Below, piece after piece: positions 931 to 35,836 of a DNA stretch of 64,000 bases. Position 1 is the first letter of the stretch, and the number at the start of each line of letters is the position of its first letter. Made by a program: the position numbers and the translations under genes. The stretch covers positions 248,001 through 312,000 of the forward strand of contig JAOWCC010000936.1 in the NCBI GenBank assembly GCA_030867875.1. The letters run 5' to 3'. Below the pieces are notes generated by a model. The model was not told where the DNA came from and made no database searches. It saw nothing but the letters and a program-made list of their open reading frames with translations. This DNA comes from Actinernus sp. WN-2022. Lineage: Eukaryota; Cnidaria; Anthozoa; Actiniaria; Actinernidae.

Positions 931-1540
931 TGATGTTAATTTTGACCGGTAACATATATGCTAGAACATGTACACCAATACAATAAAACGTATATTCATA
1001 ATATAACCGTTCTTTTATTTGAAAAATATCAGCTGAAAACTATCAGCTTTTTATAATGCATACATAACGTACATATTTAGCCTACTAGTTAAAGTGCAAG
1101 TAAAGCCATACAACAACATCTTATTCAACTCTATTTCTAATATTCTTCAGTTGTCTAAATTAGTTTTCTTTGAGAGGCAGGAGCGGAAATTAAACGAGAA
1201 TAAGCGCTAGCCGAATTGCGGGATTGATTCATCTTGTGATGTCACAATGAAAACCTGCGGGATTTTATTGTAGTAGTTTTTTCTAGGGAGGGAGTTGATT
1301 CATCTTATGACGTCACAGGATCCATGAAAATTAACCAAAATTAGGGATTAAATGCCAGAAATGTTACAAAATTTGCAAGATTAATACCTTTTTGTGAGAA
1401 ACAAACACTTCAGTTCCTTTACAGGTTTCCATGACTTTTGTGAATGTTACAGCGGCACAAAAATCGGGAAAAGGAAAAGGCTGTGGGTTTGTTTTGATTT
1501 TTCCAGCCGTGCACCATAAAAAAAGGCAATTTGATTTGGT

Positions 1541-1577
1541 AGCTAGGCGTGCACCATAAAAAATGGTGCACGCCTAG
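1541..1577. repeat. Perfect hairpin
   Basis: GCTAGGCGTGCACCAT is followed after a few A residues by its exact reverse complement. A partial copy of the arm (CGTGCACCAT) also lies just upstream near 1509. Likely the core of a small foldback element. Confidence 0.75.
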
Positions 1578-1710
1578 CATCCAATGAAATCGCGCGTTCT
1601 TAGGATGTTCCCAGTGTTTATATTATAACATTAATTATTAAAAATAATGTACCGAATAATAGGGAACAGCAGGATCATATGATGGAGAAAATATTTGAAT
1701 ATTTATTTAC

Positions 1711-1933
1711 CATCTTCCTGTGTTCTAATGGTCTTTGCAGTACTCGGGGATCCAGCATTCCATTGATTCCGTACAGCTACAGTTATAGAGTATGTCGTAT
1801 ATTTCGCTAAATTATCCAACTGCCATGAAGTCTCTTGAAGTCCGTTCACAATAACGGCATTTGATGAATCTCTAGTAGAGTAAACAATCTTGTATCCAAC
1901 TACAGTTCCATTCGGCAAGTCTTTTTGCGAAAA
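1711..1933 (-). CDS. FN3 domain, second-half exon (host gene)
   Basis: A 223-nt minus-strand exon ending in GAAGATG then GTAAAT. It encodes the second half of an FN3 domain: N-G-T-V-V-G-Y-K-I-V-Y strand, the L-x-K-Y-T-T-Y-S-I-T-V core (tyrosine corner) and R-T-Q-E-D linker. With the 71-nt exon at 2262-2332 it makes 294 nt, or 98 codons, the normal FN3 length. The linker ending RT-x-ED is typical of tandem-FN3 cell-surface receptors such as receptor tyrosine phosphatases, Sidekick and DCC types. The parent protein cannot be named from these exons. The acceptor choice (cttaag at 1934) is inferred. Confidence 0.85.
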
Positions 1934-2261
1934 CTTAAACGATGAAAAAGGAAAATAAAGTAGTTAGTTCGCAAAACTCATTAGCTGTATAACAGATGTC
2001 TGTTGATAGATGTCTGTTGTGAAGAAAAGGCACATAAATATGTACATATACCATCAATAAATAGGTCTTCAAAATAGATGAAGATTATTTTCAATCGTAC
2101 GAGTGTTTTTATCATATTCATGTGTTACTTCAAACCAGTTATATAGAAATATACACCATTGATTTATTGTGGCTAATAATAATCAGATTGAAATCTAATG
2201 TTAGTGTGTTTATATATGTGAAGACAAAGTTGTTGTATAAAGGAAAAATGGTTTTATTTAC

Positions 2262-2332
2262 TTTCCATTTGACAATGATACTAGTTGAGGACGGTGATGA
2301 AACGTTGACAATGACTGGAATGCCTTTGAGTT
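2262..2332 (-). CDS. FN3 domain, first-half exon (host gene)
   Basis: A 71-nt minus-strand exon between tttatag and gtaaat. It encodes G-I-P-V-I-V-N-V, an S-S-P-S-S-T-S-I turn and I-V-K-W-K, the first beta strands of FN3 with the invariant Trp. It pairs with 1711-1933. The next exon upstream in the gene that I can identify is at 35258, so the intron between them is about 33 kb and holds most of the transposons in the window. Confidence 0.8.
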
Positions 2333-2496
2333 CTATAAATATAAGAAAATAAAATAAATTCTAAGTGAAATGATTAATATATGCATATGTGTTTATGCTA
2401 CATGTAACTCCAAATAAAAAAAACGTGCGCGTCATTAATAATTAAAAGGTTACAATAACAATAACCTCTATATATTTCCAATTTAATAATTGAGTA

Positions 2497-2705
2497 ATAG
2501 TCCAATTCGTAGTTCTTGGACGGCTTTGGTGATATCGAGACTGGTGTCGAGACTGCATATTTAGAGGTTTGTACCTAGTGATAATCAAAACAATCCATAT
2601 TAATAGAAGACTGTTTGTACGAGTGCAGGGTCAACTCCAGCCTCCATGCGAGGCTTTGGCTTCGATGAGGCTTGGTTACCTATCAAGAACTACGAATTGG
2701 ACTAT
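2497..2705. mobile_element. Miniature inverted-repeat element
   Basis: Ends are TAGTCCAATTCGTAGTTCTTG and its exact inverse (CAAGAACTACGAATTGGACTA), ~210 bp apart, in a TA-rich target. No coding sequence. The element class is not certain; TA flanks suggest Tc1/mariner. Confidence 0.75.
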
Positions 2706-2708
2706 ATC

Positions 2709-3938
2709 ACGAAGGTCCTAACGAATCACGAACACGAAAAGCTGCTGCGAAACTGGAAAACGTTTTAATTCCTTTTGTAGGAATGCATACACGTGGTTGT
2801 ACTGGATGGCAACAAAATCTGACTTCATTTTATTTAAAGGCATTTGTATCAATTGATCACGTGACAATTTTCCCATAGCAACGCCTGTATGGAGGGCAAG
2901 CCATTCTAACATTCCTTGACAACAGAGAGAGCGTGAGAGACGCGAGCGTGAAATCTTGATACTAGAAGTTCTGCCGGTTCCTTTGTTATTCGTTTTCAGC
3001 CCAAATTTATCATAACTATTCCGTGTTAGAGGATTTAAGAGCCGCAAGACGATCAGAAATAGCTTTCTGAAGCCAAAACCGAACCGGACTCATATATTTT
3101 ATAGCGTTACGGAATGAACACAGTACCGTAATCAGCGTAGTGTTGGTATGTATTCCCAGGAGTGTGTAAGCACTACTTAAGAAACTGAATTCTAATTAGG
3201 CGTCATTCAAAGGCTTATCTACTCTGCCTAGATTACTTGTAAAGTTAATTTCTATTCAGCACATGTATATATTTATATACCTTTGTAATTATTACTAAGA
3301 ATATATAATGATGATAATGTAACGGCTTCACTAGCCTTATATGTACACAGACACCGATTATATGTAATCGCTTATATGATTTATTTATGTATCTCCGACC
3401 AGGCATTAATAAATGAGATGCCCGCCCCTTATCTGTTGTTGTCGTGGTAATGCAGTTTAGCTATTAAATGTTTTATACTCGTTCACAGTGAATAGAGTAT
3501 AATGCGAGTTACTCGCAACATGATGGCGGCCTCAACAGACAACAGGTAAGAAGCTGACTTCGGGAATGTACTTTTCTTCCACGCTTTAAATCGTTTTTAT
3601 GTTCTAGAAAAATTATGTGATGACAGGAGATGTATCTATTACTCTACCAGAGCGAGGAGACGCTGGTGTTGTATAAACTGGAACGCGCTACCACTGTTGT
3701 ATGCCACGAATGCAGTGGTGATTCACGCTACAACGATGGACTGTCTTTCCTTTCATCGCAAAAATTCCCCAGTAAAGACATGGGATTAAGGTCTCAGTGG
3801 ATCACCAAAATTCGAAGTAACGAGGGGCTTTATTGAAAGATTACAGACTCTAGTGTTGCTGGTGATCTGAAAAAAAAGAGACACACGGCGTTGCTATGGG
3901 GAAATCACGTATTTGCGCCTTAATACGCGGTAAGACGA
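2709..3938. other. Intronic DNA without recognisable gene
   Basis: I see no exon, RNA gene or repeat with confidence. Short open frames here have no recognisable composition. Confidence 0.5.
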
Positions 3939-3939
3939 A

Positions 3940-4065
3940 AGGGTCTTTATACGACTTTTCACTGTAGTGAGATCTTTTTTCTTTGTTGAACAAAGGAAAA
4001 AAGGCCTCAACAACGACGTTTTATATAGAGCCACACTCGTACAGTGAAACGCTTATAAAGACCCT
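3940..4065. mobile_element. Miniature inverted-repeat element
   Basis: AGGGTCTTTATACGACTTTTCACTGTA at the left is mirrored at the right by the inverse (ACAGTGAAACGCTTATAAAGACCCT), 126 bp overall. Further partial copies of the right arm (CAGTGAAA … AAAGACCC) lie at about 4100-4140, so the neighbourhood holds several degenerate copies. Confidence 0.65.
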
Positions 4066-4417
4066 CCTAGTCAATCCTTATGAGGCTTCACCATGAAACT
4101 TTACAAAGACCCTCGTACAGTGAAAATCCTTTAAAAGACCCTAGCGGAGAGTTTCAGTTCATAAGATTTGACTCAGGGTTGCTCAACCAACAGCCTAAGT
4201 GCACCCGAGAATAAACGCTCCTTGGCTCACAGCTCACAGGTATTAATACGCAACCGGCCTAACATTATGGGACTCAAATTTTCGCTCCGTATCGCAAGTG
4301 CGCATGTCAGTTACACACAACGTAGCTATAAAACCTTGTGTTACAGCAAATGTACGTTGAATAACTTGCAAATAATATCATTTTGAACAACAGTACCTTA
4401 ACTTTAGCGGGTTTTGT

Positions 4418-16429: not shown

Positions 16430-17440
16430 GTTTGACAAGTGATCAATGTCAACAATCTGTAAAAAGGTTAACATGCAGCTCTAAGTTATCAAGCGTTTCA
16501 GAAATCTCATACCGGGTAATATCAAAGTGCGCTTGTACAAGGCTTTTGTACTGCCAAGTTTACAATATTGCAGCAGGGGGTGGCACTTTTGTGGTGCCAG
16601 AAATGCCAATAAGTTGGAGTTGCTAAATAAGCAAGTACTATATATGCCTTGTCCTAAATGACAGGTCTAGTATGTACAGTGCCCTATTGAAGAAGATAAA
16701 TAGTTCATCCTTATGCAGTAGAGAAGTTCAGGAAATGCTTATCTTATTGTATAAGATGTCTCCATAATGTACCGATCAAATCAAAACATCTCCCCCCCCC
16801 CCCCCCACCAAAAAAAAATGTTATTGAAATGCCCCACCCCATTGTCGTATTAGGCAATCAAATACCCCTATCCCCGGGACATAGTATTAGTTGTGACACC
16901 GCATTTTGTTTTTAACAGACAGTTTAAATATCCATAAGCAATTTACATTTATATTATAATACCTTCAAATACAGCACAAAGCTTTTGGAGTCCCTTTGTT
17001 TTTAAGCCAGTTGCTTACAAAAGCAGAATTTTGTCCTTTGAAGTCGTCTAAAGTGACCTCCCCACTCCAATTCCGCCATGATTTCGATCGAGGAAACCAC
17101 ACAGCACATAACATTAAATTGAGACAACTTGTTCAAATCCCTCTACCCTCCCATCCAGTGTCAAATTCCCCACCACAAGGATAGACGGCTACCAATGTCA
17201 AATTCCCTACTCCCCAGGCACGAAAACGAGTCAAATGCCAGGGGGGATTTTGATGTTTCGATTTGATCAGTACATAACATAGGCCCTGCATACCTTATAT
17301 CCTTTTTTACATTACGCTCAAGTAACTACAACCTGCGGGGGTTATGAAGCTAAAAATACTGCCAGTTAAAACCACTACGTTTGGTCTACGTTCTTTTAAA
17401 TACGTGGCTGTGAAACAGTGCAATGAACAGGATGATGACC
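16430..17440 (+). pseudogene. LINE reverse-transcriptase remnant, split by a miniature element
   Basis: Read through frame changes on the plus strand, 16525-16625 gives the LINE block L-Y-K-A-F-V-L-P-S-L-Q-Y-C-S followed by W-H-F-C-G-A and N-K-L-E-L-L-N-K. After the insertion at 16770-17273, 17285-17430 gives the C-terminal block F-F-T-L-R-S-S-N-Y-N-L-R-G and T-T-T-F-G-L-R-S-F. That is the usual end of a CR1/L2/Jockey-type ORF2. The two pieces are collinear, so the miniature element landed in an existing LINE copy. Several frame changes and stops make it non-functional. Confidence 0.75.
16770..17273. mobile_element. Miniature inverted-repeat element with C-rich interior
   Basis: Termini GTACCGATCAAATCAAAACATC and the inverse GATGTTTCGATTTGATCAGTAC, followed inward by C-runs on one side and G-runs on the other. 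Internal segments such as AAATTCCC…CCACC resemble the element at 13516. It interrupts the LINE remnant. Confidence 0.75.
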
Positions 17441-17925
17441 TGAGGGCATATGTATGTATGTATATGCATATGTATGCATATCAAAAACCTCTCCTGCCTC
17501 ATACAGTTTTTATATCAATCTGAAACTGAAAGAATGGAACTGTCTGTGACAGTGAACGACTTCATACAGACTACAATTTACAACAAGTATAATGTGTTTG
17601 ACAGACCAAGAGCCCTACATGTACATATCACATATTTTCAGAAAACATGACATGCATTTGAGAACAAGAAAGAAATGTTGAAAGACGAGGCGAAAAGAAA
17701 GTGTTTTCAATGTTTGTCATGTGTTCTTGTGAACATTTTTTTTAGCTATTTTAGCATATACCTTATATCATACGTAGCCAGGAGCTCAACCCGGAGCGTC
17801 CATATGTCCTATGCAGGTGTCACAGCGGTTTTACAAGTTGGGCTATTTTTAGATTATTTTTCCTGTCAATTGCTGGGTTGCACCGTGGCAGAACAAAAGA
17901 TGCCTGACATTAGCTACTCTTGTTA

Positions 17926-17931
17926 TACCAG
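17926..17931. other. Target-site duplication TACCAG, left
   Basis: TACCAG immediately before the TIR start TATGGTGGCC. An identical TACCAG follows the inverse terminus at 29431-29436. A perfect 6-bp duplication indicates integrase-type cut-and-paste insertion. Confidence 0.85.
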
Positions 17932-18270
17932 TATGGTGGCCCAGGACTGCCATAGCAAAAATGAACAAAAAAAATAAAAAAAATAAATAATAAATAAAAA
18001 TGAATAAAAATTGAAAGGAAAATGAAACGAAATTAAATTAAAATCAAATCGAAATTAAAAGCAAAATCAAATTAAAAGTAAATCAAAAATAAAAACAAAA
18101 TCAATTGAAAAGCAAACGCATTTCAAAATGAAAATAAATTGAAATAAAATACCTCTTGGCCCATTGCTGCCATTGAAAATAAAATTCAAATTGAAATTAA
18201 AATGCTCGTGGCCCATCGCTGCCATAGACCATGATGCATTGCTTGTGTATGTGTTCACGAGTAAACACAA
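17932..18270 (+). repeat. Left terminal inverted repeat
   Basis: 339 bp, nearly identical to the inverse of 29140-29430 apart from the 61-bp A-rich insert at about 17967-18027. It contains three copies of a 19-bp motif, TGGCCCA-n-n-n-CTGCCAT-n-G, at 17937, 18157 and 18209. The outermost copy is at the very end, as expected for transposase-binding sites. Confidence 0.9.
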
Positions 18271-19274
18271 ACTTGATTCATCCAAGATGGCGGGGGCAAG
18301 AATCAGAAATACGGGCTGGATTGAAGACGAACGCTTAAAGTGCCCCTACGATCAAATTTTGACATATCAATTTTTTCTCATATTCGTAAAGTATAGTGGC
18401 TATATTATTACCAGTTCAAACCGTTTTTCGATACGACGACGGGAAGTCTTATTTTTTGGACTCCGAATCTTGAATTTTACGTCCGCCATTACGCGAACCC
18501 GTGCCTGTGGGCGAGGAACGCCTGGCCACTTTTTTAGCGTACGTGACGTCATACACTTAAGGTTATCGTATACCTTCAGGGTACTGTTCCGGATAAAATT
18601 AAGTAGCGTCTCGAATATTCGTCGTATTTAGATAAATTATACCTCATTTTAAAGCTTATAAAATTGGCTACAACAATATACCTAAGGTTTGTAATTTTGA
18701 TAAAAGTGCGATTTTAAATAAACCTCTTTTCCGAACAAGCGAGTTGGTTTCCAAGAGCTCCAACTCCACGGCAATTTAATGAATTTAAGATCTGTTTGCT
18801 TTTCTGGACTCCCACAGACCTTGTTTACGAAACTGTGACGGCGATTGTGGAAATTCGAAGCCGTTATGAAGATATTTCGGTCTTCGTGAAACTGCTAACG
18901 CGCAATCCAAGTATAGATGCGGGAATCGCTCTCAGCGCCTCTCTTTTAAAAAATTAAAAAATCGCCGACACCTTTTTTAGCTGATATAATTGCGAACAAT
19001 CTGTGAAAATTTGAAGTAATTCGCACAAATTCGCGTCGAGTTGGAGCTTTTTTCAAACTATGTTTAGAACAAAAATAGAAAGTCAAGAAAACGCTCTGAA
19101 AAGTTTTAGACGTTCTGGCGCCCGCCTCTTTCACAGCAATCAAACACCAGTGACTGGGAAATCTTCCCACAACAACACGTGTGGCTACTTTTCCCATACA
19201 AACCTTCACGCGAACTAACATATGTAGCAAGAAAGTGTACCATTTTCCCGCTTTGAAAAGCAAACAAAACGTTT

Positions 19275-19396
19275 TGAATAGAAATAATCCTTCAAGTTTG
19301 TGCATTGTACAAGACTGTAGCAATTTAGCGAACCACAAAGCTGGCATTTCGCTACATTCAAGCCTTCTAGTTGAGTACCAAGAATACGGTTTGTAA
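19275..19396 (+). pseudogene. THAP-like C2CH zinc-finger exon relic
   Basis: One plus frame reads C-I-V-Q-D-C-S-N then G-I-S-L-H. The spacing Cys-x4-Cys followed by G-I-S-x-H is that of the N-terminal half of THAP-type zinc fingers, which bind DNA in P-element- and Kolobok-type transposases. No downstream W or second half is seen in frame; it stops at 19396. Interpreted as the first exon relic of the nested element's transposase. Confidence 0.5.
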
Positions 19397-20398
19397 TTAT
19401 CTTCAAGCCTCATGCAAGGATGGTTTGTGTACGTTTTGACAACAACAACAACAACATAATTTATTTGTGTCAATGAATTACAAAGTGATACTTAATGGCG
19501 AAAGAGAATAACAGGGTTGACACAAGTTGTCTGAAATAGCTAAAGAGCTAGTCGAGTCAGACAGCTTACATTGTTAAGATAATAATTTGTAGGTCGTTTG
19601 AAACAAATATTTATAAACACACATACATACACACATATATATAGAAATCAGGACAGAAGCTTCTCCATAATTGTTTGTATCACATGGAATAGCCGGTAAG
19701 ACCGTACCAGAGGCCAGTATAACAGTTCAGAAGAAGGCCAAAACAGCCGAACCAACTGACAGAATGTACTACTCAGACTACTACTAGTATAGATTGACCG
19801 AAAAATAAGCGGCTACGTTTGCTGAGAACATAGTTTGTCATAAATAACTCATATTGCTGTTTCCTATAAACAGATAAACCTATCGATGTAGTATGCCTTT
19901 TAATTTACTGCTAATTTTATTTTGAAGACAATAAACCACAGAAGAAACCACCAATAATATTTCACGAAGTACCTTGTTTCAGTTGTTTGTGTCAAACAGA
20001 AACGGGCGCATGCGAAGTTTGGTTTTGTGATAGCCACGATCAGTCAGCTTCAATATATTTTTTTAGTCTCTAGTAAATTCTTATCATTCACGATTTCATG
20101 TTAGACAAGAGAGCGATTTAATTTTATAGCAATTACATTGTAATTCGCCGGAAAATCTATTGCCGGGACACAGATAATTCTCCATCTCTCATTTACGAAC
20201 TAGCAATCCGGGTTTCACTATAAACAATGAACAAACTTAGGACTTATAAACTGATCATTACCTTAGTGATTTCTCCGCTGAATTCTCCCTGTAGCCCGGA
20301 TCCAGTAACAGCACAAACCTGAAAGCCGAATCAGGGAAAATACCCTGGGGAAAAATTTGCCGAAAAAGATAAGAAACCTCTGCTAGCTAGCACTACTT

Positions 20399-20623
20399 AC
20401 TAGCAGGCCACTTTCCAAGCGATTTCCAGCTTTCAACTCGGTCGCCAGCGGCTCTATTTCCCCCTAAATCATCAACATCCGGCAATAAATTTAAACAGAA
20501 AGACACATTACTATGTTCTGAAGAATCTGAGGCAGATTTTAGGTCGTTATTTACTAAACCACAGCAAAATTCGCAGTGTGAGTTTGTCGACAACATAAGA
20601 AGAAATGTATGGGTTCGAAGCAA
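20399..20623 (-). CDS. Unrecognised first exon inside the Kolobok-like element
   Basis: An ATG-initiated frame on minus ending at a canonical donor (GCTAGTAAGT). About 75 residues: a hydrophobic start, two C-x2-C-like cysteines (H-C-E-F-C-C), a Ser/Asp-rich stretch S-D-S-S-E-H-S-N-V and L-L-P-D-V-D-D-L-G-G. I do not recognise the family. The clean donor and starting Met suggest a real first exon of an element-encoded gene whose remainder has been lost. Confidence 0.4.
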
Positions 20624-20813
20624 CTTGAGAACGATGCGTTAAGTGTATGACGTCACATACGCTAAAAAATGACTAGGCATTCCTCGCCCACGGGAACGGA
20701 TTCGAGTAATGGCGGACGTGATTTTGACGGTACACTCTCTTTAAAATGTGGTCTAATTGGCCCCATTCAAAAAAAATTCACTGATTTGGATATTTCTGCC
20801 ACTGTTTGTTCTT

Positions 20814-22059
20814 ATGGAATACAAAAAAGTGGCAAAAGAAATGGTCAAATTTCGTCGTAATGGCACTTTAAAGGAACAGCTAACAAACTATGTTAGAAGT
20901 GGACTGCGTAGAAATGAAATCTTAAGTTTTATGGAGAGGGACTTTGGAGAATACGCTTGGAGTATACGAACTCTTGATCGTCGCATGCAACATTTTGACA
21001 TTCGTTATACCGATACTGAAGTACCTTTGGACGATGTTCAAACGGCGGTAAAGATGGAACTTGAAGGTCCTGGACGACTTCTGGGTTACAGAGCCATGCA
21101 TGCAAAATTAAGACAAGAGTATCACCTCAATGTCCCAAGAAACTTAGTACATGATGTCATGTTTGATATTGACCCAAATCTACTGGAAAATCGCCGTCCA
21201 AATACCAAGGAAAAGAAAGCCAAAGGAAATTTCATGACCAAAGGCACAAACTGGGTACATTCATTGGACGGCCATGACAAACTAATGGGCTACCAAAATA
21301 GCACGTTTCCATTGGCAATTTATGGAGCTGTCGATACAGCGAGTAGAAAAATTATATGGTTAAAGGTGTGGGTCAGCAATTCAGATCCCAAAAGAATCGC
21401 GCTCTGGTATTTAGAGTATTTACATTCGACCAGACGCATGGCTTCAATCCTTAGAATGGACAAAGGCACAGAAACGGGTGTAATGGCCACAATGCATGCA
21501 TTTCTACGAGAAAAACATGGTGATATGGATGATCCATCCGACACAGTAGTGTATGGACCATCAACATCAAATCAGGTAATTTATTATTGAGGTAGATTAT
21601 TGATCAAGCCACTATTAAAGTGATATTTATACATTGTATATATATTAATATATTAAAACCTTTAATAATAGGTGATTGGCTTAACATTGGAAAATATGTG
21701 AGGATGTGGTAGTGCCATAAAACTAATATATCCTTGCACACACACACATTTTATATGTGTGTGTATATATATATATATATATACAGTCGATGCCAAAAAG
21801 GTTGTCCAGCAGAACATAATATAATACTTTAATATCCATTGTTTTGGCCTATTGTCTTGGTCTAGATATTGTCTTGGTCTATATATATACAGCCGTTTGC
21901 AAAAATTCTGACCCCCCTCACCATATATAAATATATATAAAAAATGTATCAAACATTATGGGATACCTCTTCCTATATTTTTTTCTGAAGCCCTTGATAG
22001 GCAACTTGAAAAAAATATCAGCAATGACATCCCATAATGTTAGATATATGTTTGATATA

Positions 22060-22112
<53 letters not shown>

Positions 22113-22451
22113 TGAAACAAAAAAACTCTGCCAAAGACTTATATAGCAATAGCAAATTAAAATACTAAAACCGGTAATTGTGTTGGGTCGATTTACAGCG
22201 TCCAGCGACCGGTTTGTATTTTAATTTGCTATTGCTCTTGCTACTGACGTGTGATCAAAACCTTGCTGGCCAAAATGCCAGAATTTCACGGTTAAACATA
22301 TTAGTTCATTACCGTCAAAGACAAAGAAAAACAAAGCCTATTATATTTCTTTGTGTCTACCAAAGCAACAACTGTCAAAAAAGTTTGACGGAAATATAAA
22401 GGATATATATATATGATATATATAAGTCTTTGGCAGAGTTTTTTTGTTTCA

Positions 22452-22485
<34 letters not shown>

Positions 22486-25400
22486 AATTAAAATTCCACG
22501 TGAGGAAATTGAATACATAATGAATCATGTGACTTTATTGTAGTATTGTAGTCTTTTCATCTGGACAACCTTTTTGAGAATGACTGTATATAACAATTAT
22601 TATTAGACTACAAGTTCAAGTGTTCTATGAGGCAATAGTCAACAAGGCACGTAGCGGCGAGTTGACTATCCTCAGAAAACGAGAACGAGTAGTCTAATTG
22701 TTTTAGCATAAACCAACCAGTAGGTCAGTAGAAAATGACAGAAACAATAATTCATCGAGAAAATATGAGGATAGTCAACTCGCCGCTACGTGCCTTGTTG
22801 ACTATTGCCTCATAGAAAACTTGAACTTGTAGTCTAATAATAATTGTTATATACAGTCATTCTCAAAAAGGTTGTCCAGATGAAAAGACTACAATACTAC
22901 AATAAAGTCACATGATTCATTATGTATTCAATTTCCTCACGTGGAATTTTAATTTGAGATGCAAAAGTACACGACATTGTGAGAACTGAATGTAATGGCG
23001 CTGGTATCAACTCGCAGTTCCTCGTGCTTGTAACCCCTGTTTGCTCAAAGACCCCTTTAAAACGGCTCACCGCCTGCTCATATTTTATCTATTACTTATT
23101 GTTCATAATTGACACCAATTTGTTTAAATAGATTGAAAGATGGTGGAGAGAACTTCATGAGCGTCTTGAAAAATACTTCAAGCCCCACCTCATCATGCTG
23201 AAGGATGAAGGACATTATAACCCCCAGGATGATATTGACAGGTACCACTTGAATGCTATTTATACAGCATCTGTGAAAATTGAATTTATTGATAGCCATC
23301 CAATCACCTTCACCTATCCACTGTTAGCCATCCAATCACCTTCACCTATCCACTGTTAGCCATCCAATCACCTTCACCTATCCACCTATCCACCTATGAC
23401 CTTGAAATCAACTCTATTGAAAATTTGTGGATTGAGCAAAACAATGTAATTATAGGCATTGTTAATAAGCCCCCAAATTTTTCCAACCGAGAATTTTTAG
23501 ACAACTTTGAAAAAACATTACATAATATTTATCTTACTAAGAAACAATGCATAATTATGGGCGATTTTAATATCAATACGTTAAGTAAGCACAGTAAAAT
23601 TTCTAAAGAATATCTTTCTCAATTACATTCTTCAGGTTTTATTCCTGTCATACATGAAGCTACACGAATTACAGCGAATACCCAGTCATGCATAGACCAT
23701 ATTCATCAAAACCTTGTATCACCCTGTACTAGCGGGTGCATTACAAATGAAATTTCCGATCATCTTCCTGTATTTTGTTTATTATATAACCCTACAAAAA
23801 GTCCTTTTCCTGATAAGGTAGAGGTTCGTGATTTTAAACATTTTGACACAAACAAATTTAAACATGACATAGAAAACATTGATTGGACAGATGTTTACAA
23901 TTGCAAAAAAACAAATGAGTCACTAAACCGCTTAACACATAAATTTAATTATGTTTGTAATCTGCATGCCCCCATGAAATCTGTTCGTTTAAAAACAAGT
24001 AAACATAAACCCTGGGTAACTACAGGTTTAAGAAAATCAATAGGAATTCGCGATAAAATTCACAAAATATGGCTAAAAACTAAAAAAGTTAAATATTTAA
24101 ATAAATACAAACTATATAGGAACAAAATTGTTGAATTAAATAAGATATTACGGACTACATATTATAATTCTTTAATGACTAACTCTAACAATTCTAAGAA
24201 ATTATGGGACAATATAAATTTTATTATTAATAAAAAACGACGCTCTTCAACAATTAATGGAATTACTAAGAATGAAAAAACTTATCACAATCCAAATTCC
24301 ATTGCAAACGCTTTAAATTCTTACTTTGCAGACATTCCAGTATTATTATCTTCCAAGCTACCTCGTGGTTTTCAAAATAGAAATACTCGTAAACGAAAGA
24401 CCAAACATAAATTTATAATTGATCAAACTAAAGAGGTAGAAATTTATTTAATTTTAGATAACTTAAATCCAAATAAATCCTTTGGGATTGATGGTGTACA
24501 TCCCCGTATGCTTAAACTCGCAGCACTTGAACTATGTAAACCATTAGCATATGTGATTAATCTATCTATAAATAATGGTGTTTTCCCTGACTCCTTAAAA
24601 CTTGCTAAAGTTCTTCCAATTTTTAAAAAAGGAGAGCGTACAAACTGTAACAACTACAGGCCAATTTCAATTCTTCCTATTTTTAGTAAATTTTTTGAAA
24701 GAGTAATATATAATCAATTATCTACTTACTTATGTCTTCATAACTTGTTATCTCCACTGCAATATGGTTTTCGCTCAGGATTAAATACAACAGATTGTGT
24801 GGTAGATCTTATTGACGAAATAACTCGATATTTAGATCAAGGACTATATGTGATTACAATATTTTTAGACCTTGCAAAAGCTTTTGATACGGTAGACCAT
24901 GCCACATTACTATCTAAGCTAAATAATTACGGTATCAAAGGTACATCCCATAACTGGTTTAGATCATATCTGCAATCTAGACAACAAAGAGTTTTTGTAA
25001 ATGGAGTATTTTCTGATCAATTAACCTTATCCTATGGTGTACCACAAGGTTCAGTTCTAGGCCCTTTACTTTTTCTGTTATATGTAAATGACTTTCCAGC
25101 GTCGACAACTTATTTTTCTGTCCGTATGTTTGCTGATGATACGTCGGTTACTGTTGCTGGACCTGATTTAGATTTAATTATACCCAATATAAATAGCAAT
25201 GTAAGTGATTTGTATAACTGGTTATGTGCCAACAAACTCACTTTGAACCTTGAAAAAACTAATTATTTAATATTTCAACCTCGACAAAAACAAACATATA
25301 ATATATATCCTCCTTTAAAAATAGCCAATAAACCTATAAAAAACTGTCACAGTATCAAATATTTAGGTTTTTACATTGACGCCCACCTTACTTGGTCAGA

Positions 25401-27091
25401 ACATATTGAATATTTAAATGATAAACTTAGTAAAAATATTAATGTTCTCATTAAGTGTAAAAAATATTTACCCTTCAATAGCCTTCTAAATTTATATTAT
25501 TCTCTAATTTACCCATTTATAAGCTATGGCTGTATAATTTGGGGAAATAACTATGACAGTCCGTTATCTATCCTAGCTAAACTTCAAAATAAGGTTATTC
25601 GTGTTATATGTGATGTTCCTATAAGAGAGCATATCACTCCATACTATATTAAACTTAATGTACTTAAAATTCCTGATATAGTTAAAATGAATACATGTCT
25701 TTTCATTTATGAATGTATGACCGAAAGCAAAAGCTGTTCAATCAATATGAAATATGTCTCAGAACAACATTCTTACCAAACAAGAAGCTCTACAAATCAA
25801 ATTTTTTACATTGAACGATATCGGTTAAATTTGAGAAAATTTTCCCCCACAGTAATAGGTCTTTATTATTGGAATAACTTACCTCTTCGAATTAAAAGCA
25901 TTCATTCCAGAAAACAACTAAAAAAAGCTATTTTTTCTCACTACCTTTCCCAATATTGATATTTATTATGCATTATTTTGGCAGAAATGTTCCTTTTAAT
26001 TTGTTCTAGCTAGTAATAATTATCACAGATTTAAGGGTATCGTATTTAGGTAACTATTTGATGCCCTTACACCAATGATTAATGTTGAGTGTGAGGTATC
26101 GTTTTTCCTAGTGTAGTATGTGTGTATTTTATTGTCTGTTATTTAATGTTATATTGTATAAATTTGTAAATCATGGTGTAAAATAAACTCAAATCAAATT
26201 AAACTCAAAAACCTATCCACTGTTAGCCATCCAATCACCTTCACCTATCCACTGTTAGCCATCCAATCACCTTCACTTATCCACTGTTAGCCATCCAATC
26301 ACCTTCACCTATCCACTGTTAGCCATCCAATCACCTTCACCTATCCACTGTTCACTGCCATCCAATGTAAAGAATAAATTTCAACCATGGCTTTGTTGTG
26401 CTAGCTTTTTGAGTACAAGCACTATATGTGTGCAAAACATATCAACATTTAGCAGTGAATAGTGCTTATTCAACAAAAAGACAATATAATTATTAATTGG
26501 ACTGAATTTGTTTGCTTTGTTAGAACCCCAAGAGGGGGTGGGGGTGGTTAGAATTCTGCCCGCTAAGCCAGACCAGTACAGCTCATATTATTCTAACACT
26601 TGCTTTGTAAATTTACTTTAGAAACTTGTTGGCATTTCTTTACATCCCTATTATTGGAAAAGAACTAGAGATATTTAAGAATACCATCTGGAATAACCAT
26701 AGGATTCGTCACCAAAAAAACACTCTTTTACCAGATGGAGTCCCAGAACATATTTATAATTTCCCAGAGGAGTATGGTCTAGAAGAATGTGGTAAGCATT
26801 GTTAGAGTTTACAGTATGATTGCAAGATTGTAAAATTCTATCAATAGTCATGTGTGGAATTATGTATTAAAATTCAAACTGATATACTTTGTAGGATTTT
26901 CAGTTACAGAGGAACAATTAGAAGAAGTTGCTCTTCTTTCTGGTGTGTTGGATATTGAAGATGACTTCTTAGAGCCAGAATTCAGAGCAAAGTGTGAACA
27001 AATTATCCCTTCTCCTTCTGATGTAGAGCCAGCTGATGGTGTCAAAGCATTTCAATATTTAAGAAGTGAATTTCTAAAAATTAATCAATGA
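20814..27091 (+). CDS. DDE integrase-core transposase, four exons
   Basis: Exons 20814-21575, 23132-23241, 26622-26791 and 26895-27091 join in frame (GT-AG throughout) to ~412 aa. The start at 20814 is chosen because it precedes the conserved helical N-terminus; an in-frame ATG at 20757 is possible. Residues 1-110 are basic and helix-turn-helix-like (S-I-R-T-L-D-R-R). The retroviral-type integrase core follows: D152 in S-L-D-G-H-D, D216 in R-M-D-K-G-T-E, and E256 in the N-Q-I-E-R-W-W motif created across the first splice. That gives a full DDE triad with 39 residues between the last two. The C-terminus carries P-D-G-V-P-E-H-I-Y and an acidic tail. Cut-and-paste transposition is its expected role, using the TIRs at 17932 and 29430. 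No stop or frameshift is seen. Introns have been enlarged by later insertions. A possible polyA signal is at 27221. Confidence 0.88.
21945..22060. repeat. Small inverted repeat in (TA)-rich DNA
   Basis: TATCAAACATTATGGGAT near 21948 is mirrored by ATCCCATAATGTTAGATA and GTTTGATA near 22030-22057. Probably a decayed miniature element. Confidence 0.6.
22110..22456. mobile_element. Miniature inverted-repeat element in (TA)n
   Basis: CACTGAAACAAAAAAACTCT at 22111 and onward GCCAAAGACTTATATA is exactly inverted at 22421-22456. Inside, GCAATAGCAAATTAAAATAC is also inverted (22146 and 22217), giving a hairpin within the element. TA-rich flanks on both sides suggest Tc1/mariner. Confidence 0.8.
22486..22957. 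mobile_element. Long palindrome with Tc1/mariner-like ends
   Basis: Arms of ~190 bp, 22486-22675 and 22770-22957, are nearly perfect inverses around a ~95-bp centre. Each arm contains TATACAGTCATTCTCAAAAA then GGTTGTCCAG, the same terminal type as the lone copy at 21780. It looks like two copies of one terminus joined head to head. A perfect arm pair of this length is young or maintained by copying. Confidence 0.8.
23132..23241 (+). CDS. Transposase exon 2 (catalytic Glu)
   Basis: 110 nt, acceptor ATAG, donor GTACCA. Encodes I-E-R-W-W-R-E-L-H-E-R-L-E-K-Y-F-K and H-Y-N-P-Q-D-D-I-D-R. The Glu is the third DDE residue; the W-W after it is typical of this integrase family. Confidence 0.85.
23297..23397. 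repeat. 32-bp minisatellite, left part
   Basis: Three and a half units of TTAGCCATCCAATCACCTTC plus ACCTATCCACTG, with an extra CCACCTAT triplication at the end. It continues beyond the LINE at 26213, showing the array existed before the LINE arrived. Confidence 0.9.
23398..25959 (+). CDS. LINE ORF2: endonuclease (partial) and reverse transcriptase
   Basis: An open frame runs from the truncation point to TGA without a stop, ~853 codons. The first ~125 residues are the C-terminal half of an APE-type endonuclease: I-I-M-G-D-F-N-I-N and S-D-H-L-P-V. The reverse transcriptase follows: N-N-Y-R-P-I-S, F-L-D-L-A-K-A-F-D with the first catalytic Asp near residue 482 (numbering from the TTG at 23425), G-V-P-Q-G-S-V-L-G-P-L, and F-A-D-D at 569-572. 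The C-terminal Y-L-G-F-Y-I-D and Y-P-F-I-S-Y-G-C-I-I-W-G blocks are present. All catalytic RT residues are intact, so the insertion is recent. The missing N-terminal endonuclease half makes this copy incapable of autonomous movement. Codons are strongly A/T-ending compared with the kinase gene. Confidence 0.9.
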   Translation, partial: DLEINSIENLWIEQNNVIIGIVNKPPNFSNREFLDNFEKTLHNIYLTKKQCIIMGDFNINTLSKHSKISKEYLSQLHSSGFIPVIHEATRITANTQSCIDHIHQNLVSPCTSGCITNEISDHLPVFCLLYNPTKSPFPDKVEVRDFKHFDTNKFKHDIENIDWTDVYNCKKTNESLNRLTHKFNYVCNLHAPMKSVRLKTSKHKPWVTTGLRKSIGIRDKIHKIWLKTKKVKYLNKYKLYRNKIVELNKILRTTYYNSLMTNSNNSKKLWDNINFIINKKRRSSTINGITKNEKTYHNPNSIANALNSYFADIPVLLSSKLPRGFQNRNTRKRKTKHKFIIDQTKEVEIYLILDNLNPNKSFGIDGVHPRMLKLAALELCKPLAYVINLSINNGVFPDSLKLAKVLPIFKKGERTNCNNYRPISILPIFSKFFERVIYNQLSTYLCLHNLLSPLQYGFRSGLNTTDCVVDLIDEITRYLDQGLYVITIFLDLAKAFDTVDHATLLSKLNNYGIKGTSHNWFRSYLQSRQQRVFVNGVFSDQLTLSYGVPQGSVLGPLLFLLYVNDFPASTTYFSVRMFADDTSVTVAGPDLDLIIPNINSNVSDLYNWLCANKLTLNLEKTNYLIFQPRQKQTYNIYPPLKIANKPIKNCHSIKYLGFYIDAHLTWSEHIEYLNDKLSKNINVLIKCKKYLPFNSLLNLYYSLIYPFISYGCIIWGNNYDSPLSILAKLQNKVIRVICDVPIREHITPYYIKLNVLKIPDIVKMNTCLFIYECMTESKSCSINMKYVSEQHSYQTRSSTNQIFYIERYRLNLRKFSPTVIGLYYWNNLPLRIKSIHSRKQLKKAIFSHYLSQY
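23398..26210 (+). mobile_element. LINE (CR1/L2/Jockey type), 5'-truncated, inserted in minisatellite
   Basis: Begins abruptly inside the endonuclease domain after CCACCTAT and ends in an A-rich tail AAACTCAAATCAAATTAAAC-TCAAAAA that joins minisatellite DNA. An ACCTAT direct repeat at both junctions may be the target duplication, but the array makes it ambiguous. The 3' untranslated part runs 25960-26210. 5' truncation is normal for target-primed reverse transcription. Confidence 0.85.
26213..26352. repeat. 32-bp minisatellite, right part
   Basis: Four more units of the same GCCATCCAATCACCTTCACC array that precedes the LINE. One unit reads CACTTATCC rather than CACCTATCC. Confidence 0.9.
26622..26791 (+). 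CDS. Transposase exon 3
   Basis: 170 nt, acceptor TTTAG, donor GTAAGC. Encodes L-L-A-F-L-Y-I-P, W-N-N-H-R-I-R and P-D-G-V-P-E-H-I-Y-N-F-P, a block I associate with the same integrase family. Confidence 0.85.
26895..27091 (+). CDS. Transposase exon 4
   Basis: 197 nt from acceptor TTTGTAG to TGA. Completes G-F-S and gives the acidic tail with V-T-E-E-Q-L-E-E-V-A and F-Q-Y-L-R-S-E-F. Confidence 0.8.
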
Positions 27092-27829
27092 GAATATATA
27101 ACAATTTATTACAGCTCAAGGACTTGCATTTAACCTAGTAATTAGCCCATGTCACATACATGAAGTTCAGTGCAAATACAGTTCCCTCTAAACAAAGTAC
27201 TCCAAACTAATGGCAAATGCAATAAATTGTTGGACATCAGGTGTATTTCAAATAGTTTTTATTTTATTATATTCATGATCAAGCATTCTATTTTGATATA
27301 ATTTTGAACTTGTATAACCTCATAAACTTATGAATTGCATGTAAATAACACAAGGCTGTACATGCATTTATAATTTACTGGGAATGCACATGATATATAT
27401 TCCAGTTTGCTACTTTCTGTATATATGCATCCAAGCGTTGAGCACTATTTAAGGTTTTAATTTTATCAGTTAAAAACATTGTCACATAAGATTATAGTGC
27501 ATTAGAGTCATTTTCATATGACAGTTACTGGACAGTAGGGATATGGTTATAAAAACTGACATGGTCACTGTATGGACACTACCATTTACCCTCATGCAAA
27601 AACAACTCTATGGGTAGCAGATTGTTGAAATAAAACTAATAAGCACAGTGGCAAAAGTTATGACAAAAACTACCCATGATCGAAATGGCTGTTTATATTA
27701 TATATATATACAAACTTTAGATATGAATAAGTAATTGTGTGTCAATTTACAGACAATAAAAGAAACAGGAACATGAACAATAAAGTGACTATATGCACTA
27801 TTTAAAATCATGGGCAGATGACCAATGAA
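27092..27829. other. Spacer between converging transposase and kinase genes
   Basis: AT-rich with AATAAA on plus at 27221 (candidate transposase polyA signal) and reverse-orientation AATAAAA near 27258 (possible kinase polyA signal). No further gene seen. Confidence 0.55.
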
Positions 27830-29098
27830 TTACTTAAGCTCCTTTAAGTCAAGGTAATTGCAAAAAGAATTGCATTTATGTTCTTCAGTGAAATTATCAA
27901 TTGCCTGTGTGGATAAATTTCCTGCAGTGAACATTAATTCTGTATTGTTGTGCAGTAGCTGAGCAGAGGCAATTTCAGGATCAAACAAACTCAACCCAAC
28001 ACCTTGAACATCAACCACCATTACCTGCTGACTTGACTCTTCATACGAAAAGTGCACAAGACATTCTGCTTTTTGGAATAAAATAGACTCTGTATTGTTG
28101 ACTGCAGGACATGGTTTACCGTCGTTATTAACATATTTGACCATTTCCCCCTCTACAAACTCCTCTACAGACACCACTTCGCCGTTTTCAAACTTGCCAA
28201 AGAAAATGGTCTTATAGCGCATCACCTCACCGAATTCTCCCTTTAGACCCTGTTTGGTTACTCTGTTTTCCAATCTTGCAGCAAAGTTTCTTGGTAGATG
28301 GTGCATTTGGACCACTTTTTTGGTGTGCTGTTCTACGCTTTGATTTGTCTCTTTGATTTCTTTAAGAGCATTTTCATTATAACGTTTGATTACCCAAGCA
28401 CAATGTGTAAAATCTTTGGTAGTGGACTTTGCCTTGAACGCTTTCCTGAACGCTCCTTCCCCAAGTACGTCAGCTGAAATAACAAATTCTACGGGTATTG
28501 GAATGGTCGACCAAGTCATCGCTTCTAAGTTGAATGTGTAAAGATTCAAAAGAGTTACATCATCAGCCGGTACTAATCTCCCCAACCTTAATATGGTGGA
28601 AACTGACAAGCTTTTAGGTACATTTCTTTTCCTTTTTTCTTCTTTAACTGGGCTAGGCATAGATGATGTGCAAGGACGTGACAAACCAGTGCTGTGGCGC
28701 TTTCGTTTCAAGTCGGGTTGTTCTTGTTTGACCTCGAAGCATTCCGATTCATCTTCGATGAATCTGACGTGAATCAGATTCAAATTGGGTATTTGCTTCA
28801 TATTTGCACAGGATGGCCCCTGCTCCCCAGCGAGGACATCGCAAAGCATATTTTCGCCAATATTTGCACTAAAGTGCTTCAGGCAGGCGGCCTTGATGTT
28901 ATCCATGGTGAGATCTTCGTCACCGAATGCCACGAACTCTCTGGGCCCGACTCTTATGTATTTTTGAGCCTTTCCTGAAACACTTGCGCTCAATCTTTGC
29001 ACCAGTATTTCTTCTTTTGAATCTTTGTCGCCTTTCTTTGTCGTCGCCGTCCTTTTTTGCTCAATATTTTGCTTAAATTTCTTCCACTTCTCCGCCAT
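27830..29098 (-). CDS. Alpha-type (atypical) protein kinase, transposon cargo
   Basis: One intronless frame of 422 aa; the start ATGGCGGAG lies 42 bp inside the right TIR. Residues ~45-115 form an unrecognised domain (I-R-V-G-P-R-E-F, L-T-M-D-N-I-K-A-A-C, C-D-V-L-A-G-E-Q-G-P-S-C). Residues 125-165 are a basic Ser/Pro-rich linker with K-R-K-R, possibly nuclear. Residues 200-418 are an alpha-kinase domain, the eEF2K / myosin-heavy-chain-kinase / TRPM7 fold: G-E-G-A-F-R-K-A-F (213-221), W-V-I-K-R-Y with catalytic K238, E-E-F-V-E-G-E-M-V-K-Y (312-322), H349-F-S-Y-E, V-V-D363-V-Q-G-V, F-D373-P-E-I, and H407-K-C409-N-S-F-C413. The last three with H349 are the four zinc ligands. Odd points: the usual D-P-Q is D-P-E, and the Gly-rich loop before the zinc site is G-N-L-S-T-Q-A, lacking two glycines. 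Likely active and expressed from the TIR, but neither is shown. Substrate unknown. Confidence 0.88.
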   Translation of the reverse strand: MAEKWKKFKQNIEQKRTATTKKGDKDSKEEILVQRLSASVSGKAQKYIRVGPREFVAFGDEDLTMDNIKAACLKHFSANIGENMLCDVLAGEQGPSCANMKQIPNLNLIHVRFIEDESECFEVKQEQPDLKRKRHSTGLSRPCTSSMPSPVKEEKRKRNVPKSLSVSTILRLGRLVPADDVTLLNLYTFNLEAMTWSTIPIPVEFVISADVLGEGAFRKAFKAKSTTKDFTHCAWVIKRYNENALKEIKETNQSVEQHTKKVVQMHHLPRNFAARLENRVTKQGLKGEFGEVMRYKTIFFGKFENGEVVSVEEFVEGEMVKYVNNDGKPCPAVNNTESILFQKAECLVHFSYEESSQQVMVVDVQGVGLSLFDPEIASAQLLHNNTELMFTAGNLSTQAIDNFTEEHKCNSFCNYLDLKELK

Positions 29099-29139
29099 CG
29101 TGACAACTTCTAGTGAACACGGGTCGTGAACACGTGTGT

Positions 29140-29430
29140 TGTGTTTACTCGTTACCAGTTTTCTGAGAACACATACACAAGCAATGCATCATGGTCTATG
29201 GCAGCGATGGGCCACGAGCATTTTAATTTCAATTTGAATTTTATTTTCAATGGCAGCAATGGGCCAAGAGGTATTTTATTTCAATTTATTTTCATTTTGA
29301 AATGCGTTTGCTTTTCAATTGATTTTGTTTTTATTTTTGATTTACTTTTAATTTGATTTTGCTTTTAATTTCGATTTGATTTTAATTTAATTTCGTTTCA
29401 TTTTTGCTATGGCAGTCCTGGGCCACCATA
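29140..29430 (-). repeat. Right terminal inverted repeat, probable kinase promoter
   Basis: Inverse of the left TIR. The 19-bp motif occurs at 29407-29425, 29248-29266 and 29196-29214. The kinase ATG is at 29098, so transcription of the kinase must start in or next to this TIR. The left TIR likewise precedes an ATGGCGG at 18287. Confidence 0.85.
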
Positions 29431-29436
29431 TACCAG
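29431..29436. other. Target-site duplication TACCAG, right
   Basis: Identical to 17926-17931. Confidence 0.85.
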
Positions 29437-34561: not shown

Positions 34562-35257
34562 ATGGGTTGCACTCAATTCCTTCTTTCTCTCAATTTGCTA
34601 ATTTAGTGCTGAAAATGGCAAGGCTTTCGAGCCTGTTGTGAGGAAATTAATATTCAAAAACCAAAAACCAAACTGCCTTCTGGTTTTCGAGCCTACATTC
34701 GTTTATTTGTAATTACTGGTTACGCGTGACATTACATAGAGGTAAAAACAAATAACTGCATCATTCAATTTGTCATTCAATTTGCTTCCTCCCGGCTATT
34801 TATTACGGTTAGACTTCACTGTTATGTAGGTCGTATCCTATTGGAATTCACTGATAAAGAATCCCATTGTTTTAGGGTTAGGGTTTGTATTGTTGTAGGG
34901 GTAGGCTATTGTTTGGGTAACCAACAACATTTCAGGTTGCAAACGGTGAAGTCTGCCCCATTTATTAAATTGTACCATAACGATAATGTTATACTAAATT
35001 TGGGACCATTTTCATCTTCACCGACCAACAACAACATGTGAAAGAAATCAACTGGGAAACCCTGTTATGCGTAATACGACAGTACCTAGGGCAATTAAAT
35101 GGCAGCTTGGACAACTTTAGTCTGAACTAATGTTTTTCGTCAACAAAAAACTAAATGTATTAGATTATAATTACTTTGCATAGGGCTACTAGTGTTTGGT
35201 AAATCTTAAAGTTCTATACATCATGATTAATGAAACACTTTTTTGACATTTACTTAC

Positions 35258-35563
35258 GCGTTGCTGTAATGTTCAATGATGGATGACTGTACGGTCCTGG
35301 TCCAGCTTTCGTGTAGCCTCTAACTCTTATAATGCACGTAGTGTAAGGAGGAAGTTCTTGTGATATGACATACGAAGTTGTTGTTGTATTACTAAGTTGT
35401 ACTAAGTTGTGTTTAGTCCCTCCTTTCTTTACAATTAACCACTGAACTTCATATCTCCTAACGACACCATTACTTCTATTTCTTGGGATTGGCAGCCAGG
35501 ATACATTGAAGCTCGTTGCCGTTATCCTGTCAAATTCTACGTTTGACGGAGCTTCGCTTGGTG
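35258..35563 (-). CDS. FN3 domain, single complete exon (host gene)
   Basis: 306 nt between acceptor ATCTTAG and donor GTAAGT; phase 1 at both ends. 102 codons encode a whole FN3: A-P-S-E-A-P start, T-S-F-N-V-S-W with the core Trp, V-V-R-R-Y-E-V-Q-W, L-P-P-Y-T-T tyrosine corner, and G-P-G-P-Y-S-H-P-S then L-N-I-T-A-T. Located between 36627-36923 and the 2.3 kb exon pair, with the 33-kb intron downstream. Extracellular in all likelihood. The unbroken frame and consensus splice sites argue that the gene is functional here. Confidence 0.9.
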
Positions 35564-35836
35564 CTAAGATAAAATACAACAAAATGTAAATGTTATGCAG
35601 ATGCAACAAATTATCCCTATGTTGTACAAAATACTTGCAAGCAAATATTGAAAGTATGAAAGGAAGTATGAAAAATAGAATGCGTGGGCGCCGAAAGACT
35701 AAAACGTAAATTTGACATGGTATATCGAATATATATATACATGAATTCTTATTCACGATTCTTATTTATAGACTACTTTTTCTTTTTGATTTAAGAAATA
35801 ATCAAGGTAGGGTTGCCAAATACTTGTGCCTTGTGG

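Follow-up and report, generated by a model that had tools for sequence, protein, structure and literature searches.

Positions 17932-29430 of the window, by which we mean the whole 64,000-nucleotide stretch of DNA analysed, are occupied by an element with long terminal inverted repeats (TIRs) and a perfect 6-bp target-site duplication (TSD), TACCAG, and its TIRs enclose a four-exon DDE transposase gene and a convergent alpha-kinase gene (Table 1). The TIR arms match perfectly over their outermost 34 bp and are 100% complementary over another 238 bp (18019-18256 / 29167-29404), in agreement with the preliminary description of this DNA, which had reported TIRs and a perfect TACCAG around both genes. 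Given the termini, TATGG..CCATA, the 6-bp TSD, and the integrase core, which probably fits as well, this is very probably a copy of a two-gene IS3EU DNA transposon, carrying a DDE transposase and an alpha-kinase, in a host whose closest relatives at the protein level are animals.

Table 1. Features of the element, in window coordinates.
Feature	Position	Strand	Remarks
Left TSD, TACCAG	17926..17931	.	Matches right copy perfectly
Left TIR (TATGGTGGCCCAGGACTGCCATAG...)	17932..18256	+	61-bp indel relative to right arm
Transposase exon 1a	18287..18338	+	ATG at 18287; cut off by nested insertion after TTAA; joins exon 1b in L061
Nested 2529-bp element	18339..20867	.	Imperfect AGTGCC... terminal inverted repeats; TTAA duplication 18335-18338 / 20868-20871; interrupts transposase exon 1; site empty in L061
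Transposase exon 1b	20868..21575	+	Weak HTH-like match and start of integrase core
Foldback sequence in intron	22480..22960	.	Arms of 195 nt, 99% complementary; L061 has this region too
Transposase exon 2	23132..23241	+	IERWW, putative catalytic E
Nested retroelement	23386..26210 (approximate)	+	Open frame 23296-25959 with RVT_1; within intron; absent from L061
Transposase exon 3	26622..26791	+	
Transposase exon 4	26895..27091	+	Stop included
Alpha-kinase, 422 aa, single open frame	27833..29098	-	Conserved N-terminal domain, aa about 30-118; alpha-kinase domain, aa 213-413
Right TIR	29167..29430	-	
Right TSD, TACCAG	29431..29436	.	

The two genes and the insertions between them

The spliced transposase proposed at the outset was recovered when exons 1b to 4 were joined at GT-AG sites that we picked, giving a product of 394 aa with PF24764 at 74.5 bits (cut-off 26), a domain that we infer to be the IS3EU core. 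The domain search matched no zinc domain in the transposase; IS3EU transposases have no HHCC zinc domain. Exon 1 is broken by the nested 2529-bp element, and therefore the word "intact" is true of the kinase and not of the transposase, although a frame that has an ATG of its own stays open from the insert's end into exon 1b. The second assembled copy of this insertion (L061), which has the same TSD and near flanks in common, lacks both nested insertions, and its transposase is frameshifted. Because the transposase genes are damaged in both assembled copies, the window copy has probably lost the ability to move on its own. Both nested insertions, the TTAA element and the RT retroelement, had been missed in the preliminary description. 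The frames in the element were taken from a list of those of at least 100 aa, which contains, besides the transposase and the kinase, the RT frame, a frame within the nested insert (18946-19491), a repetitive one (21918-22220), one across exon 1a, and one across the left end; an Rfam search of the window gave no match.

The alpha-kinase is convergent, intact, and intronless, as first described, being one 422-aa frame on the minus strand with PF02816 at 116 bits (cut-off 21.3). Its ATG does lie close inside the TIR, but at 68 bp from the contiguous TIR edge at 29167 and not at the 42 bp originally given, a count that seems to have started at a shared 14-bp block lying apart, near 29140. The residues K238, D363, Q365, and D373, which we take to be the conserved catalytic residues of the alpha-kinase domain, are identical in all 42 aligned kinase homologues. 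At 22 of 22 inspected kinase-domain positions, at least 40 of the 42 homologues share the same residue, an agreement that is descriptive and not a test, since these positions were drawn from the conserved list. In the profile comparison, the kinase domain came closest to TRPM7 (E 3e-28), followed by eEF2K (2e-20), and a kinase search against viral contigs found none. The N-terminal domain precedes the kinase domain in 42/42 aligned homologues. Neither Pfam nor the PDB offered a convincing match for it (best PDB E 0.98), and nothing convincing came from an NCBIfam search with two whole kinases; judged by eye, the domain may be ubiquitin-like. The linkers of only 18 of the 42 kinases contain an NLS-like motif, compared with 7.8 expected, which weighs against the reading proposed below.

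Recurrence of the kinase-transposase pair

Of the 150 alpha-kinase matches listed for the genome, 47 have a related transposase match no more than 20 kb away, and all 47 are convergent with it; for the other 103, the list shows no transposase at that distance, in part because the scoring covered only 150 of the 1534 transposase candidates. A convergent kinase accompanies 29 of the 40 transposase matches at 60-69% identity and 16 of the 34 at 46-59%, the chance level at random places being 0.4% per match, and a transposase lineage at 33-38% identity is without the kinase (1/34 matches near one). Both genes are enclosed by TIR pairs of eight core types. The end search found TIRs with a perfect 6-bp TSD at 10 of 11 loci, the kinase-side terminus was found at 20 of the 30 kinase loci scanned with a profile, and the termini occur 280 times genome-wide versus 0 for the reversed pattern. 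At L068, both genes were present by homology and the end search gave no TIR/TSD pair; L070 likewise has both genes by homology, and no kinase-side terminus or TIR was found there; and no TIR was found at L071, of the distant transposase lineage. Many kinase matches are fragments or contain stops.

That the kinase is a mere bystander gene is rejected: it recurs convergent with the transposase (47/47 paired matches), it lies inside TIR-bounded elements, and it is constrained between families, all of which upholds its original reading as cargo of the element. A one-off capture, in which a single element picked up a host alpha-kinase gene, would agree with the window's own 95-100% family, where a kinase is near only 2 of 42 transposase matches (2 of 19 merged loci), and these two are the window and its second copy, that is, one insertion; L065, the only copy without a kinase whose whole sequence was read, consists of the transposase half in palindromic form. 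Nevertheless, homologous kinases occur at the same position and in the same orientation in elements with other TIR cores, a conserved N-terminal domain is peculiar to the kinase, and the TET+ fungal IS3EU families, as far as the accessible text of PMC12730594 describes them, are arranged likewise. This explanation is thus ruled out by recurrence across families, and we consider it extremely improbable. The search of other copies for the kinase, as first proposed, thus came out against capture through recurrence in many families, with one real exception, the window's own family, in which most transposase matches have no kinase near. By matches, 9 of the 34 facing TIR pairs contain neither gene and 9 the transposase only, and hence the kinase is not required in cis.

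Outside this genome, the Exaiptasia kinase LOC110237033 and transposase LOC110237035 are both given with a 374,143-bp contig, P0073 and P0291 both go with a 268,778-bp contig, and another pair has the EukProt names gene2290 and gene2289. These database names and contig sizes suggest that the kinase and transposase are linked in a sea anemone too.

Selection on the kinase and its descent

Between families, 196 of 231 pairs had no finite dS, and because pairwise dN/dS was thus saturated, omega from a codon model was used instead, being 0.035-0.08 for the kinase (with synonymous sites saturated) and 0.026-0.05 for transposase exon 1. The dN/dS comparison advised earlier gave strong purifying selection on the kinase sequence between families; among close copies inside families, omega values range from 0 to more than 2, with very few changes behind them. 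These between-family values, far below 1, and the full-length open kinase frames in many copies speak against a decaying passenger that no longer matters, which we consider very improbable, although kinase-less deletion and palindromic derivatives have multiplied and many kinase matches are in the broken state mentioned above.

For one family, B (L063), the trees of the two genes seem to conflict. The kinase tree places it with C/F and rejects a constrained grouping with A, D, and G (p-AU 7e-82), whereas A is the family closest to B in transposase identity. This would be expected if the kinase were a module swapped between transposon families and not strictly co-inherited, an explanation that we find somewhat unlikely, given that a grouping of B with C and H is compatible with the transposase data (p-AU 0.17) and that identity to the window in the kinase is correlated with that in the transposase (rho 0.59, over 27 pairs including near-duplicates).

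Proposed working of the element and its relatives

Both genes start just inside opposite TIRs and point at each other. With start codons that we picked, all 7 elements compared have the nearest in-frame ATG of the transposase about 0-83 bp from the inner edge of its TIR, and 6 of the 7 have that of the kinase at such a distance, with no kinase start found in L069. Each TIR may also provide one gene with its promoter and 5' leader, and with TIRs as promoters for both, the two proteins would be made together. Our best guess is that the kinase is a nuclear transposition cofactor. As a second transposition protein within the nucleus, it would select its partner through the conserved N-terminal domain, and its kinase domain would phosphorylate either the transposase of the element itself or a host factor at the ends; we give this nuclear step somewhat less than an even chance. 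The preliminary description had suggested transposase, chromatin, or translation factors as what the kinase could phosphorylate.

Among the substrates of known alpha-kinases are eEF2 and myosin heavy chain, and the element kinase might instead be a core gene directed at the host (eEF2-like translation, silencing, or repair) and not at the transposase. TET/JBP genes are also found in fungal IS3EU and in other transposons, and these the author of PMC12730594, in the text available, thinks to serve escape from silencing, which would fit a host-directed kinase as well; as a weak argument against it, the domain profile is closest to TRPM7, with eEF2K second. We find such a host-directed role rather unlikely, and to the same degree we doubt that the kinase does something other than these two actions. 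Only tentatively, and with our judgement inclined against it, do we extend the cofactor reading to the past: a large IS3EU clade common to animals and fungi could have had the alpha-kinase from its ancestor on as its second transposition protein, kept as a working part, with TIR promoters matching those of the transposase, and aimed by a new N-terminal domain. If this were true, much of the expansion annotated in corals and anemones as "TRPM6-like" or "eEF2 kinase" would be transposon protein. More generally, a transposon origin is possible for alpha-kinase genes that bear the names TRPM6-like, vwkA-like, or eEF2 kinase in the genomes of cnidarians and other invertebrates. A kinase under selection in a cut-and-paste transposon would, if true, be a new way to control its own movement or the host, and the two-gene element makes the question of its role testable.

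The element kinase shares its catalytic domain with TRPM7, eEF2K, and MHCK-A and differs from them in the N-terminal domain, which has no convincing Pfam or PDB match. With the IS3EU/GingerRoot elements, as given in the available text of PMC10045372, the window element has in common the TA..TA termini, a usually 6-bp TSD, and, probably, an integrase-like DDE transposase, whereas the word kinase occurs 0 times in that text. Styx of Zymoseptoria is derived, in the Figure 8 legend of PMC10853768, from a two-protein IS3EU element with a DDD/E transposase as one of the proteins, the second not being called a kinase in the text around that figure. The closest likeness by description is to the TET+ fungal IS3EU families in the accessible text of PMC12730594 (2025), so that the preliminary statement that no transposon group with such cargo had been described does not hold. 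There, the transposase and alpha-kinase genes are in opposite orientations and the TSD is 6 bp, just as in the window element, and the TATGG..CCATA termini of the latter fit the TAYGG..CCRTA of Pucciniales IS3EU. The differences are the host, apparently an animal here and fungi there, and a TET/JBP gene between the two others, not seen among the element's frames of at least 100 aa, a list that short exons could escape. We conclude that the alpha-kinase is a real, little-studied part of an already known kind of element.

Architecture of the element and its second assembled copy

It was stated in the preliminary description that TIRs with a perfect TACCAG duplication enclose both genes and that the alpha-kinase is intact and intronless, and the window sequence bears out both statements. 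The two TIR arms agree at every position over the outer 34 bp and over a further block of 238 bp, the left arm carrying a 61-bp indel, and the kinase is a single, uninterrupted minus-strand frame of 422 aa (PF02816, 116 bits). The spliced DDE transposase claimed there was found as four plus-strand coding exons, with exons 1b–4 giving 394 aa that match PF24764 (74.5 bits vs. a cut-off of 26), but exon 1 is broken by a nested insertion that had passed unnoticed, as had a retroelement in the transposase intron.

Features of the window and of related loci in the same genome
Feature	Sequence	Position	Strand	Remarks
Element	window	17932-29430		perfect TACCAG duplication on either side
Nested TTAA-flanked element	window	18339-20867		2529 bp; cuts transposase exon 1
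Foldback sequences	window	22051-22960		nested in transposase intron; arms 195 nt and 65 nt
Retroelement with RT	window	23386-26210		~2.8 kb; within transposase intron
Open frame	window	35250-35765	minus	fibronectin type III-like by eye; perhaps a host-gene exon
L065, palindrome	C888:17066400-17072000	1407-4272		TSD CACATC
L072, palindrome	C540:23369150-23373260			4014-bp element; TSD CTTGTG
L071	C1021:127500-131200			distant single-exon PF24764 transposase lineage, many genome copies

The exon 1 insert is piggyBac-like on its target site alone, and the retroelement sits beside or within a minisatellite with units like GTTAGCCATCCAATCACCTTCACCTATCCACT, as read by eye. Both inserts are absent from L061, the second assembled copy of the window insertion, which lies on a separate 453-kb contig with a TSD identical to the window's and with matching blocks that extend 344 bp past the left end (98.7% identity) and 426 bp past the right end (99.2%). 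Exon 1 of the L061 transposase contains a frameshift, and the L061 kinase has an open frame of 422 aa. This copy probably represents the other haplotype of the window locus; 896 of its bases further left gave no match to window positions 16501-17587 at the threshold used, and it may instead be a duplication.

Recurrence of the gene pair, termini, and palindromic derivatives

The host genome of 1.39 Gb contains at least 151 alpha-kinase matches, and the transposase search, with 150 of 1534 candidates scored, gave 161. Among the 150 matches listed per gene, on which all pairing counts are based, 47 kinases have a transposase within 20 kb and 103 have none listed at that distance; since the matches include fragments and probable allelic duplicates, these 47 pairs are not 47 independent insertions. 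The proposal that the kinase is cargo of the element is supported by the recurrence of the pair, the nearest transposase being convergent in 47/47, with an exception in the window's own family (transposases at 95–100% identity), where a kinase is near in only 2 of 42 listed matches, or 2 of 19 merged loci, namely the window and L061. Among listed transposases of 60–69% and 46–59% identity, 29/40 and 16/34, respectively, have a kinase nearby, all convergent, the expectation at random places being 0.4% per match. In the distant transposase lineage (33–38%), one of 34 listed matches has a kinase nearby, and that kinase has a 52% transposase as its nearer neighbour; at L071, one locus of the distant lineage, neither a kinase match nor a TIR was seen.

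In an end search on 11 loci (the window, L061–L069, and L072), TATGGTGGCC termini with perfect 6-bp duplications were found in 10, two of them palindromic (L065 and L072), and none were found at L068. The kinase-side terminus occurs in 20 of 30 kinase loci, with about five core types apart from the window's, and TATGGTGGCCNNNNNNYGCCAT was counted 138 + 142 times in the genome vs. 0 for the reversed control pattern. The first 100 listed termini gave 34 facing pairs, some having an end in common, which by matches contain both genes (8), the kinase only (8), the transposase only (9), or neither (9). Six cores occur among the eight two-gene pairs, making eight core types with the window and L064. 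The target site looks like S-W-S-S-W-S over 35 distinct flanks, sampled wherever a terminus was found, with its partner present or absent; counting both strands, position 1 is C/G in 62/70 and position 2 is A/T in 64/70.

L065 is a window-family palindrome of the transposase half, without the kinase, having two inverted copies of transposase exon 1 in arms of ~1.25 kb, and L072 is its kinase-side counterpart, both of whose arms look like they hold broken kinase N-termini, despite its place among the "neither" pairs. Several further window-family loci have both ends with matching duplications.

The kinase protein, selection, and proposed working

The kinase has 325 homologues at E up to 0.001, and the best 120 of these come from hosts such as Paramuricea, Dendronephthya, Exaiptasia, Actinia, Desmophyllum, and Saccoglossus, under labels including TRPM6-like, vwkA-like, and eEF2 kinase. 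Profile comparison with solved structures ranks TRPM7 first (E 3.3e-28), followed by eEF2K and MHCK-A, and the catalytic landmarks are invariant or almost so in 42 homologues. Residues ~30–118 form a domain conserved above the remainder of the protein, 101 of 103 matches spanning at least 93% of it at 54–78% identity. This domain retrieved 56 further proteins, eight of them, all short (235–285 aa), without a kinase-domain match; it gave no convincing match in Pfam or PDB, and by eye the order of its elements suggests a possible ubiquitin-like beta-grasp.

Codon models gave omega values of 0.035–0.063 for the kinase (eight sequences from different families, 378 codons), 0.045–0.080 with four sequences, and 0.026–0.049 for transposase exon 1 in four elements, each range covering two models and the two values per run (program's log and checkpoint), and all being rough because synonymous sites are saturated. 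Close copies within a family, which differ by very few changes, gave values between 0 and more than 2, and the five pairs with ~12 or more synonymous changes each (L010, L026/L027) gave 0.57–0.66.

Start codons were measured in seven elements: the transposase has its nearest in-frame ATG 0–31 bp from the inner edge of the TIR in all seven, and the kinase has an ATG within ~83 bp of that edge in six, two of which have one candidate slightly within the TIR. In the seventh, L069, the kinase showed no start. L064 has a 389-bp TIR with ATGs at 389 and 422. Each TIR would then serve as promoter and leader of one gene. All 42 homologues have a basic kinase tail (net +3 to +10), an NLS-like motif occurs in 18/42 linkers vs. 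7.8 expected, and we infer from sequence that the kinase may act in the nucleus.

Families, other genomes, and known IS3EU systems

In the kinase tree, family B groups with C and F, and its grouping with A, D, and G is rejected (p-AU 7e-82). The transposase tree, which has a very distant outgroup and in which H is present in 35% of columns, does not resolve A, B, D, and G and separates C+H (85/80); B with C and H is not rejected by these data (p-AU 0.17). The trees suggest that families may exchange kinases.

The transposase has 505 homologues, the 120 listed coming from hosts that overlap the kinase's, e.g., Dendronephthya, Exaiptasia, and Patella. According to database records, Exaiptasia kinase LOC110237033 and transposase LOC110237035 are each assigned a contig of 374,143 bp, and P0073 and P0291 are each assigned one of 268,778 bp. 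From their names alone, EukProt gene2289-2634_t (transposase) and gene2290-2635_t (kinase) are assumed to be neighbours in one set. A gene model, P0012, seems to span a transposase N-terminus, a TIR-like peptide, and the kinase, in that order.

In the freely available literature searched, we found no description of an animal IS3EU kinase, and PMC12730594 (2025) alone surfaced for transposons or IS3EU combined with alpha-kinase. Broader searches added no other case among the papers listed, and no transposon kinase is described in the further papers examined that mention both IS3EU and a kinase. In the available text of PMC10045372, IS3EU/GingerRoot elements have TA..TA termini and usually a 6-bp TSD, and in that of PMC10853768, Styx derives from a two-protein IS3EU; in the TET+ fungal IS3EU families of PMC12730594, transposase and alpha-kinase genes are stated to lie in opposite orientations.
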